Shown here: positions 21,381 through 24,629 of the stretch, in pieces
Layout of the letters: each line of letters opens with the position of its first letter
How positions within the stretch are numbered: position 1 is the stretch's first letter
Program-made: the position numbers and the translations under genes
The notes under the pieces: model-generated
What the model was told of the DNA's origin: nothing
Seen by the model: the letters and a program-made list of their open reading frames with translations, nothing else
Databases searched by the model: none
Assembly (NCBI GenBank): GCA_020718105.1
Contig: DYDA01000002.1
Location: 1-53,903, forward strand
Direction of reading: 5' to 3'
DNA from: Micavibrio sp.
GTDB taxonomy: Bacteria > Pseudomonadota > Alphaproteobacteria > UBA9219
DNA length: 53,903 bases

Positions 21381-22739
21381 TCACGTTTTTGTTTTTTGTA
21401 AAGCGCGGAAACGTCCCGCCCAACCTTCTGTATTCGTTTGCCTTTCGCGGGCAATGGCCAAAGCGTCCGGTGGGATGTCCTGCGTGATCGTGCTGCCAGC
21501 CGCGATGATTGCGCCATCGCCTATTGTGACGGGGGCAACCAGCGCGGTGTTTGACCCAATAAACGCGCCCGCGCCGATTTCCGTATGAGCCTTGGTAAAG
21601 CCGTCATAGTTGCAGGTAATCGTGCCCGCGCCGATGTTGGTTTTCTCACCCACCGAGGCATCGCCGATATAGGAAAGGTGGTTGACCTTCGCGCCCTTGG
21701 CAATTTTTGTGTTCTTGATCTCAACAAAGTTGCCGATGTGGGCGGCCTCGCCGATCACCGAGTTGGGGCGCAGGCGAACAAAGGGGCCGATGATCGCGCC
21801 CTTTTTCACGGTCACTTGATCCAGATGGGAAAAGGCGCGGATTTCGACGTTATCCTCAATCACAACGCCCGTCGCAAAAACGACGTTTGGCCCGATGGAG
21901 ACGTCTTGCCCCATCACCGTATCCGCTGCCAAGGTCACTGTTGCGGGATCGATCATCGTGACGCCGCTTAGCATATGCGCTGTGCGCAGGCGATTTTGCA
22001 TCACAGCATCAACCTCGGCCAACTGCACGCGCGTGTTCACGCCGCGCACGTCGTCAGCATCCAGTGTCGTCGTGGTCACCGCCAGGCCTTGCTTGTTCGC
22101 TAAGGCGATGGCATCGGTCAGGTAGTATTCGCCTTTAGCGTTATCGTTGCCGATTTGATCCAGCAAAGCCCACAAGGCGGTGGCCTCAAACAGCATAATC
22201 CCGCCGTTGCAAAGCGTGATGGCTTTTTGCTCTGGCGTGGCATCGGCAGCCTCGACAATCGCTTGCAGCTTGCCGTTAGTGCCCATGACCAAGCGGCCAT
22301 AGGGGGCAGGATCGGCAGGCACAAAGCCCGCAACGGCCAGCGCAGCCTTGTCCTGCATCAAGCGTTCGCGCAGCGCCATAAGGGAGGCTGGCGTGATCAG
22401 GGGCGTGTCGCCAAACAGCACAAGAACGTGCCCTTCGAATCCGGTCAAAGCCTCCCGCGCAGCCTTAACCGCATCGCCCGTCCCAAGGGGCTGGCTTTGG
22501 ATCGCGCAGGCATGGGGGGTGACGGCTGCCTGCACCGCGTCCATGTCGGGCGCAACAACGACCACGACCTTCTGCGGGGCAAGAGCCTCACACGCTTTCA
22601 CAACATGGCGGATCATGGGGAATGAGGCCACAGGATGAAGAACCTTGGGCAAAGAAGATTTCATCCGAGTCCCCTGCCCCGCCGCTAGAATAACGCAGGC
22701 TAAAGGAGGGTATGTCATGGGCGTTGCCTTGTCGGTCAT
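21381..22739 (-). CDS. glmU: Bifunctional UDP-GlcNAc pyrophosphorylase / glucosamine-1-P acetyltransferase GlmU
   Basis: 452 residues from the ATG at 22739, chosen for AGGA about 10 bases upstream; a frame start at 22793 would add an unlikely tail. The N-terminal uridyltransferase has LAAGQGTRMKSSLPKVLHPV and LFGDTPL. The C-terminal left-handed beta helix has hexapeptide repeats and acetyltransferase residues in NFVEIKNTKI and GAGTITCNYDG. It makes UDP-GlcNAc for peptidoglycan and lipid A. It is complete and standard in length. Confidence 0.96.
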   Translation of the reverse strand: MTDKATPMTYPPLACVILAAGQGTRMKSSLPKVLHPVASFPMIRHVVKACEALAPQKVVVVVAPDMDAVQAAVTPHACAIQSQPLGTGDAVKAAREALTGFEGHVLVLFGDTPLITPASLMALRERLMQDKAALAVAGFVPADPAPYGRLVMGTNGKLQAIVEAADATPEQKAITLCNGGIMLFEATALWALLDQIGNDNAKGEYYLTDAIALANKQGLAVTTTTLDADDVRGVNTRVQLAEVDAVMQNRLRTAHMLSGVTMIDPATVTLAADTVMGQDVSIGPNVVFATGVVIEDNVEIRAFSHLDQVTVKKGAIIGPFVRLRPNSVIGEAAHIGNFVEIKNTKIAKGAKVNHLSYIGDASVGEKTNIGAGTITCNYDGFTKAHTEIGAGAFIGSNTALVAPVTIGDGAIIAAGSTITQDIPPDALAIARERQTNTEGWAGRFRALQKTKT

Positions 22740-22780
22740 TGTCGGTTTATCCTGAAGGAAGAGAAAAAATGGAGTAGACC

Positions 22781-22947
22781 CAATACTGTTCAAGCTTGGT
22801 AAGTAAAAAAGAAAACAAATGGGATCCCCGCCTGCGCGGGGATGACGCTAAAGGGAAACACCGTTACAAAAACCCCGTCATGCCAGCGAAGGCTGGCATC
22901 CCATTTTCTTTTTTGTCTTTAAAACACCCCTTGAACTGTATTGAGCG
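22781..22947. repeat. Family A REP doublet with outer arms, copy A2
   Basis: REP palindromes at 22821-22847 and 22876-22903 are in inverted orientation. The outer arms are copies of the dispersed motif: CAATACTGTTCAAG at 22781-22794 and, inverted, CTTGAACTGTATTG at 22930-22943 (13 of 14 complementary). A-rich segments sit between arm and REP on both sides. It lies upstream of glmU and next to the gph-duplication insert. Confidence 0.8.
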
Positions 22948-22966
22948 CACATTATCACTGTTCGGA

Positions 22967-22996
22967 GATCTAAATGCAACGGCTTGAAGCGGTTTT
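22967..22996 (+). repeat. Left copy of a 30-base duplication of the gph 5' end
   Basis: These 30 bases are identical to 23948-23977, the start of gph (GATCTAA leader, ATG, and codons for QRLEAV). Here the frame runs MQRLEAVFSLN and stops at 23009. A GGAGAT precedes it, so a 11-residue peptide could still be translated. It flanks the inserted gene at 23075-23917 and marks the insertion boundary. Confidence 0.9.
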
Positions 22997-23074
22997 TTCC
23001 TTGAATTAACCAAAAGGCCTATGCCACTTTCTCGTCATGCACTACCATTTCAACGAAAATCTAGGAGATAATCC

Positions 23075-23917
23075 ATGGCAAGAGAACCCAACACTGACAT
23101 TAGAACCTTAGAAATTTGCATCGATGCCCTTCACGCGACGAATGTTACTCTGGCGGGTTACCATTTTTGTTGGAAGCGGGGCAATATGGGGGTCACCGTT
23201 AGAATGGATTATCATGAAAGGGGTTCCTTTACACCTGCCATGAAATCCCTTCACAATAATCCGCTTCATGCTTCTTCCGGCGGTGCTTTGATCAATGAAT
23301 TTGTAAAAAATGAACATCCCGAAAATCTTCATGCCGCATGGCAGTTACGCGAAGATTCTGAAAAAGAATATGGTCTAACTCTTGAGCTTACGGGAAGCGA
23401 AAAACTCCTGATCGACTTCTTAAAAAGGTCGTTTGGTCCATGGGCAAAAAGCCTAAACGAAAACAACAAGAACCGCCCCTTTTATGGACGACCGGTTGTG
23501 GCCAAGGTCAGTTTGGACGGAGCAAGAATAAACTCCGCTTGGCAATTTTTAGACAATCCCGCTCTCATAGCTCGTTTGGAAAACACTATCCTTTATAAGC
23601 CAAAGCAGGCGGCAGAGGAAAAAATACCCCAAGAGCTTCCCCCGATTGATGCGTCTGCGCAAGCGTGGGATTGGGATCTTTATGTTAGGAACAAAAAAGC
23701 CTTGGAATGTCGTCTTCCGCCTATCGGGGGTGACTTTACGATTGTGGGACAAAGGCAAATTGAGGCACGCAATATGGAATTAAGACAAAGCGCTGGCCAA
23801 GAAGCCGATGCTCTGGGCATTTCTGATGAAGAATATTACGCAACTAGACCGAAGACATACCGTACTGTTCTTAATAGAGTTACGGGAGAGGCGGAAAGAA
23901 CTGGGTTCTCTAGATAA
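23075..23917 (+). CDS. Hypothetical protein inserted upstream of gph
   Basis: A 280-residue soluble protein with no domain I recognise. It has an AGGAGA ribosome-binding site six bases before the ATG, so it is probably expressed. Visible features are a mixed alpha/beta N-terminal two-thirds, an EEKIPQELPP linker near 195-205, then a charged helical tail with GISDEEYYATRPKTYRTVLNR. No signal peptide or membrane segment is present. The gene sits entirely between the two 30-base repeats that duplicate the gph 5' end, and its sequence appears more A/T-rich than the surrounding genes, which suggests acquisition by transfer. Cargo of a small mobile element is possible; the function is unknown. Confidence 0.75.
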   Translation: MAREPNTDIRTLEICIDALHATNVTLAGYHFCWKRGNMGVTVRMDYHERGSFTPAMKSLHNNPLHASSGGALINEFVKNEHPENLHAAWQLREDSEKEYGLTLELTGSEKLLIDFLKRSFGPWAKSLNENNKNRPFYGRPVVAKVSLDGARINSAWQFLDNPALIARLENTILYKPKQAAEEKIPQELPPIDASAQAWDWDLYVRNKKALECRLPPIGGDFTIVGQRQIEARNMELRQSAGQEADALGISDEEYYATRPKTYRTVLNRVTGEAERTGFSR

Positions 23918-23947
23918 GAGGGATATCCAGCTGCGCCATCATGAAGG

Positions 23948-23977
23948 GATCTAAATGCAACGGCTTGAAGCGGTTTT
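23948..23977 (+). repeat. Right copy of the 30-base duplication, within the intact gph start
   Basis: Identical to 22967-22996. It covers seven leader bases (GATCTAA) and the first codons of the functional gph. GAAGGGA just upstream provides its ribosome-binding site. The two copies are direct repeats 981 bases apart. Confidence 0.9.
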
Positions 23978-24629
23978 ATTTGATTGTGACGGCACTTTGC
24001 TCGACAGCGCCCCTGATATAGGGCAAGCGCTGAACCTGATGCTGGAGGATTGTGACCGCCCGCCCCTGCCCTTGGCGCAGATTAAGGGCTATTTGGGCGA
24101 TGGCATGATGGAGCTGTGCAGCCGCGCCCTTATGGCGACGGGCGGGTTGCCGCAGGATGACGTGTACCCTTTTGTGCAGAAGTTTATCACGCATTACCGC
24201 AAAGTCCCCGCCGATCCCTCGCAGATTTACGCGGGCGGGCGTGAGGCGTTGGAGTCTCTGTCGCAGGCGGGCGTGAAGCTGGCCGTTTGCACGAACAAGC
24301 AGGAAGCTGCCACGCGGCGCATCTTTGATCAGCTTGACCTGACGCGCTATTTCGCGGCCATCGCGGGGGGAGATACCTATTTGGTGCATAAGCCGCATCC
24401 CGATCATGTCTTGAATCTTTTGAAGGCGATGGATGTCTCGCCCCAAGGAACCCTGTTCGTCGGCGATGGCATGAATGACGTTATGGCCAGCCGCCAAGCA
24501 GGTGTGAAATGCGTCATCATCACGCATGGCTATAGCGACGATTGGGAGGCTCTTGGCGCGGATGCCCTGATCGGCGGCTTTGACGGGCTGTCAGCAGCCA
24601 TCGAAAAGCTGGGCTATGCGGCAAAGTAA
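23955..24629 (+). CDS. gph: Phosphoglycolate phosphatase (HAD superfamily)
   Basis: A 224-residue HAD phosphatase. Motif I is FDCDGTLLDSAPD with the nucleophile and acid Asp pair, motif II is the Thr in AVCTNK, the motif III Lys lies near HKPHPDH, and motif IV is VGDGMNDVMAS. The helical cap after motif I matches Gph, which removes 2-phosphoglycolate formed in DNA repair or oxygenase activity. Its leader and first codons were duplicated by the upstream insertion, but this copy is intact. It converges on the lipoprotein gene with a 19-base gap. Confidence 0.9.
   Translation: MQRLEAVLFDCDGTLLDSAPDIGQALNLMLEDCDRPPLPLAQIKGYLGDGMMELCSRALMATGGLPQDDVYPFVQKFITHYRKVPADPSQIYAGGREALESLSQAGVKLAVCTNKQEAATRRIFDQLDLTRYFAAIAGGDTYLVHKPHPDHVLNLLKAMDVSPQGTLFVGDGMNDVMASRQAGVKCVIITHGYSDDWEALGADALIGGFDGLSAAIEKLGYAAK

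Follow-up and report, generated by a model that had tools for sequence, protein, structure and literature searches.

Gains of DNA that leave a direct duplication of the target sequence have been described from Helicobacter pylori under the name 'insertion with long target duplication' by Nobusato, Uchiyama, Ohashi and Kobayashi (2000, Gene 259:99), whose work is described in PMC1643837 and PMC3031569. Between 10 and 18% of the small variable segments in E. coli, S. aureus and S. pyogenes have repeats at their flanks, most of them shorter than 30 bp, and illegitimate recombination has been proposed to account for much of the diversity among such segments (PMC2884548).

The locus described here has a comparable structure. 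It lies in a window of 53,903 bp, the whole stretch of DNA that was analysed, from contig DYDA01000002.1 (positions 1 to 53,903, forward strand) of assembly GCA_020718105.1, from the uncultured alphaproteobacterium Micavibrio sp. A single gene is located between glmU and gph and is bordered by two copies of the gph 5′-end. The features of the region are as follows.

21381–22739, reverse strand: glmU, the divergent neighbour of gph, with the start codon chosen from a reading of the sequence.
22773–22950 (borders approximate), forward strand: palindromic MITE-like repeat between glmU and the left copy, with 58 matches in its own genome and a terminal inverted repeat of the form TATACCCAAAACAGTTCAAGAGTTGGC in the alignment of copies.
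22967–22996, forward strand: left copy of the 30-bp repeat (exact).
22974–23009, forward strand: gph stub, MQRLEAVFSLN followed by a stop codon, which from its sequence is probably the original gph start severed by the insertion.
22997–23947, forward strand: inserted DNA without the repeat, 951 bp (981-bp unit when one repeat copy is included), with a GC content of 45.5% compared to 53.9% for the window and with no terminal inverted repeats.
23075–23917, forward strand: orphan gene, a complete open reading frame of 280 aa with an AGGAG ribosome-binding site at 23063–23067 and a GC3 of 41%.
23948–23977, forward strand: second (right) repeat copy, 30 bp, which now serves as the gph start, with AAGGGA just upstream as the likely ribosome-binding site.
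23955–24629, forward strand: gene for a gph-like HAD phosphatase of 224 aa with intact catalytic motifs (TIGR01449, 173 bits with a cut-off of 180; PF13419, 4.6e-34; alignment).

The 30 identical bases (GATCTAAATGCAACGGCTTGAAGCGGTTTT) are in direct orientation, match at 30 of 30 positions and are 981 bp apart from start to start. Each copy consists of 7 bases of the gph leader, the ATG, codons 2 to 7 and two bases of codon 8, and identity between the copies ends sharply at either edge. Only these two occurrences of the 30-mer were found in the whole 1.9-Mb genome with up to 3 mismatches allowed. The preliminary description had reported an exact direct repeat with this spacing, a left copy that encodes MQRLEAVFSLN and then stops, a right copy that leads into an intact gph, and a single complete gene with a strong ribosome-binding site in between, and all of these were recovered at the positions listed above. 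Its further claim that the reading frame had been restored stands only in that the right copy opens an intact gph; no frame inside a protein needed repair, the right copy being a second gph start region with a new leader.

Exact direct repeats spaced 150 bp to 20 kb apart were surveyed in the window and 20 sampled stretches, together 454 kb or about a quarter of the genome. When palindromic elements and locally repetitive sequence are set aside, no exact spaced direct repeat in the 454 kb is longer than the gph pair, which is also the sole remaining pair of >22 bp. The longer or similar pairs that were set aside are a 95-bp repeat in near-tandem arrangement, a single locally repetitive run of Lys/Ala codons, and copies of two palindromic families. 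Approximately 1e-8 matches of this kind would be expected by chance (estimated as 454 kb × 20 kb × 4^-30), and a chance match is excluded as the origin of the 30-bp pair.

Further repetitive sequences were observed in the course of this survey. The 95-bp repeat (L059:1930–2217, same genome) is exact, with its copies 192 bp apart, and belongs to a further repetitive element (CCGTCATTGCGAGCGAC...). Copies of a second palindromic family (CACCCTCCCCTTGCGGGAGGGTCGA / CCCTCCCGCAAGGGGAGGG) are dispersed over the genome, at 9311 and 37614 and also in L057, L059 and L072. The MITE-like repeat between glmU and the left copy has a REP-like core, and the genome contains no Y1 (RAYT-type) transposase. This repeat was considered as the cause and rejected, since it is a distinct element that has termini of its own and ends some 16 bp short of the left copy. 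It is a separate insertion, either earlier or later than that of the orphan gene, so that the glmU-gph gap has received two insertions.

The 280-aa open reading frame is predicted to be a real gene on the basis of its 280 open codons, its codon-position composition and the AGGAG before the start codon. No homologue of the protein was detected, at the limits applied, in Pfam, NCBIfam, PADLOC, the genome collection or the viral, phage and plasmid collections, nor in 96 relatives, 385 genomes of the class and 398 genomes of the phylum. Searches of PHROGs (E 0.28) and of solved structures (immunoglobulin light chains, with E values from 0.14 upwards) returned matches at chance level only. An AlphaFold model made without an alignment has a mean pLDDT of 38 and is unusable. 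The GC3 of 41% compares with 57.6 ± 7.7% over 277 long open reading frames in the genome, six of which are lower, and the insert is thus foreign-looking in composition, with a GC3 that is atypical yet not unique within the genome. The orphan gene is separated from gph by 37 bases, and the two genes probably share one transcript that would be read from the side of the old gph start and the MITE-like repeat. A promoter scan revealed nothing above chance, and a scan against Rfam nothing above the cut-off.

An empty glmU-gph interval, which the preliminary description had expected in related genomes, was found in 24 relatives, namely those in which glmU could be located beside gph. In each, the two genes are divergent neighbours, and the short gap that separates them holds no such gene. 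The nearest species (MAG UBA8914), in which Gph is 71% identical, has a single gph start beside glmU and carries ...CAGGGGACATAAATGCAACGACTTGAAGCGGTTTTGTTTGAT... once. Because the relatives have adjacent, divergent glmU and gph genes and the nearest has one copy, the arrangement at this locus is a lineage-specific insertion, on a comparison between species with one genome per species. Codons 1 to 8 of gph are near-identical in the window and in the nearest species (counted from the ATG, 22 of 23 bases agree), and the leaders diverge fast. The 17 bases upstream of the left copy show a weak likeness to the leader of the nearest relative (p about 0.02); for the right copy p is about 0.11, and its leader is no closer to that of the relative than shuffled sequence. 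The slightly closer match on the left suggests that the left copy holds the original gph leader.

Changes to gph itself were seen elsewhere in the group. In the Gph homologues of two congeneric species (L009/G002 and L011/G003), HAD motif I reads FELDGP and FDLEGT compared to FDLDGT, and motif IV is likewise changed, with loss of catalytic aspartates; these homologues may be inactive or repurposed. A gph homologue from the same family (L028, G019) is interrupted by an in-frame TAG. Given the loss of the catalytic aspartates in two congeneric species, the constraint on gph may be relaxed in this group, and insertions at the gph start could then be easier to tolerate.

The explanation we favour, and to which we give about an even chance, is that approximately 0.95 kb of foreign DNA was captured by illegitimate recombination in one event, with duplication of 30 bp of target sequence, i.e. 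an insertion with long target duplication. The incoming DNA, with one gene and its own ribosome-binding site, would have entered between glmU and gph, and the duplicated target would be the 7 bases of gph leader and codons 1 to 8. A replication fork that left the target for the foreign DNA after ...GCGGTTTT could have rejoined the target 30 bp upstream, or a staggered break could have been filled in; either template switching or fill-in would yield the product in one step. The left copy would retain the old leader and become a dead 11-codon stub, and the right copy would gain a new ribosome-binding site and become the start of the intact gph. The insertion is probably recent. Capture is supported by the sharp-edged 30-bp repeat, the empty site in relatives, the low GC content, the single copy, the lack of inverted termini and the lack of a similar pair in the 454 kb. 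Against it, a chance slip would be expected to duplicate fewer than 30 bases, and a duplication located exactly at the start of a gene that is left intact would also be expected of a site-specific element. Selection for gph explains the intact gene equally well. Also against it, no Ku was found in the genome, so Ku-dependent end joining is not available as a joining route.

Two of the alternatives involve mobility. The preliminary description had proposed that a small element integrated at the gph 5′-end, and that part of the claim which concerns an insertion there with duplication of the 5′-end is upheld by the empty arrangement in relatives. The 981-bp unit might then be a minimal non-autonomous integrative element whose 30-bp attachment core copies the gph 5′-end, moved in trans by a tyrosine recombinase of the host; it would supply gph with a new 5′-end, as SXT/R391 elements do at prfC, and would exchange the gph leader for its own while adding a cargo gene. 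The identical direct repeats at both ends, the intact target gene and the single cargo gene have the form expected of such an element, and 12 tyrosine recombinases above the Pfam cut-off are encoded on other contigs of the genome; two of these enzymes may be XerC and XerD as judged by size and score. However, the 125-kb contig that carries the locus encodes no tyrosine recombinase, in agreement with the integrase absence noted in the preliminary description. The search that it advised, for the same unit at other gph genes or elsewhere, was negative: the unit and its 30-mer have no further copy and the gene no paralogue in the genome, and no recurrent insert of this kind is present at gph in the 24 relatives with glmU beside it. 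The phage, plasmid and viral collections also hold no relative of the unit, and an integrative element appears distinctly improbable. Transposition by a lost or unknown type of element, with a very long (30 bp) target duplication, has a smaller likelihood again. A target duplication around intact cargo does have the form of a transposition product, but the ends of the insert have no terminal inverted repeat above shuffled controls, no second copy exists, the insert encodes no transposase, and neither a Y1 transposase nor Cas1 was found in the genome. Derivation from a transposon or IS is not supported, given the lack of inverted termini and multiple copies, nor is CRISPR-type (Cas1) integration with a duplication of repeat length, as no Cas1 match was found in the genome. 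No result identifies the insert as mobile, and the small-mobile-element reading is not supported.

Of the readings that require no mobile element, the least probable of all those considered is an assembly artefact. The genome is in 42 contigs, and a 30-bp repeat falls within the small word sizes used by assemblers, so that metagenome assembly could have falsely joined sequences at this repeat. Such a join would, however, need the 30-mer beside the orphan gene in a real molecule, which would itself be a duplication or an excised circle, and the gene order is ordinary and continuous on both sides in the window and in the contig. A close rival of capture with target duplication is homology-facilitated illegitimate recombination, which we nevertheless consider unlikely. 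The donor would be a close relative in which the orphan gene immediately precedes gph; its DNA would have been joined on the right by homologous exchange within gph and on the left, after codon 8, by a single illegitimate join. In that case the gph start at the right copy would come from the donor, and the left edge of the repeat would be set only by leader divergence. A single illegitimate join suffices for this arrangement, and the conservation of codons 1 to 8 at 71% Gph identity alongside fast-diverging leaders is consistent with it. PMC2884548 cites descriptions of this process in transformable bacteria. Against this, the orphan gene was not found upstream of gph among the 96 relatives and 385 members of the class, and the likeness of the right leader to that of the nearest relative is at the shuffled level.

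If capture with target duplication is the correct explanation, the locus is a clean example of a bacterium that has no Ku-type end joining gaining a single foreign gene beside a housekeeping gene and keeping the latter. It is a single case, and mainly adds to an already known pattern. As with SXT/R391 at prfC (PMC2791158), a conserved gene has received DNA at its 5′-end and stays intact, and the sequences at the two ends are near-identical. However, SXT/R391 elements are about 100 kb in length, carry their own family-defining tyrosine recombinase and reuse the same site, whereas no integrase and no recurrence were found here. The small variable segments (PMC2884548) are similar in that a short strain- or species-specific piece is bordered by short direct repeats and is not explained by known mobile elements, though most of their repeats are <30 bp, while here the repeat is 30 bp and encloses a whole gene. 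In the H. pylori insertions, as they are represented in PMC1643837 and PMC3031569, the published cargo is frequently restriction-modification genes and the comparison is between strains, whereas the gph insert carries one orphan gene that matches no Pfam or PADLOC model and is compared between species. The features by which insertions with long target duplication are recognised, namely exact flanking repeats, an uninterrupted one-copy target in the nearest species and a lack of IS or transposon ends, are all present at the gph locus. As far as those accounts go, the two share a foreign gene with a direct duplication of its target, no IS or integrase, and an empty site in relatives.
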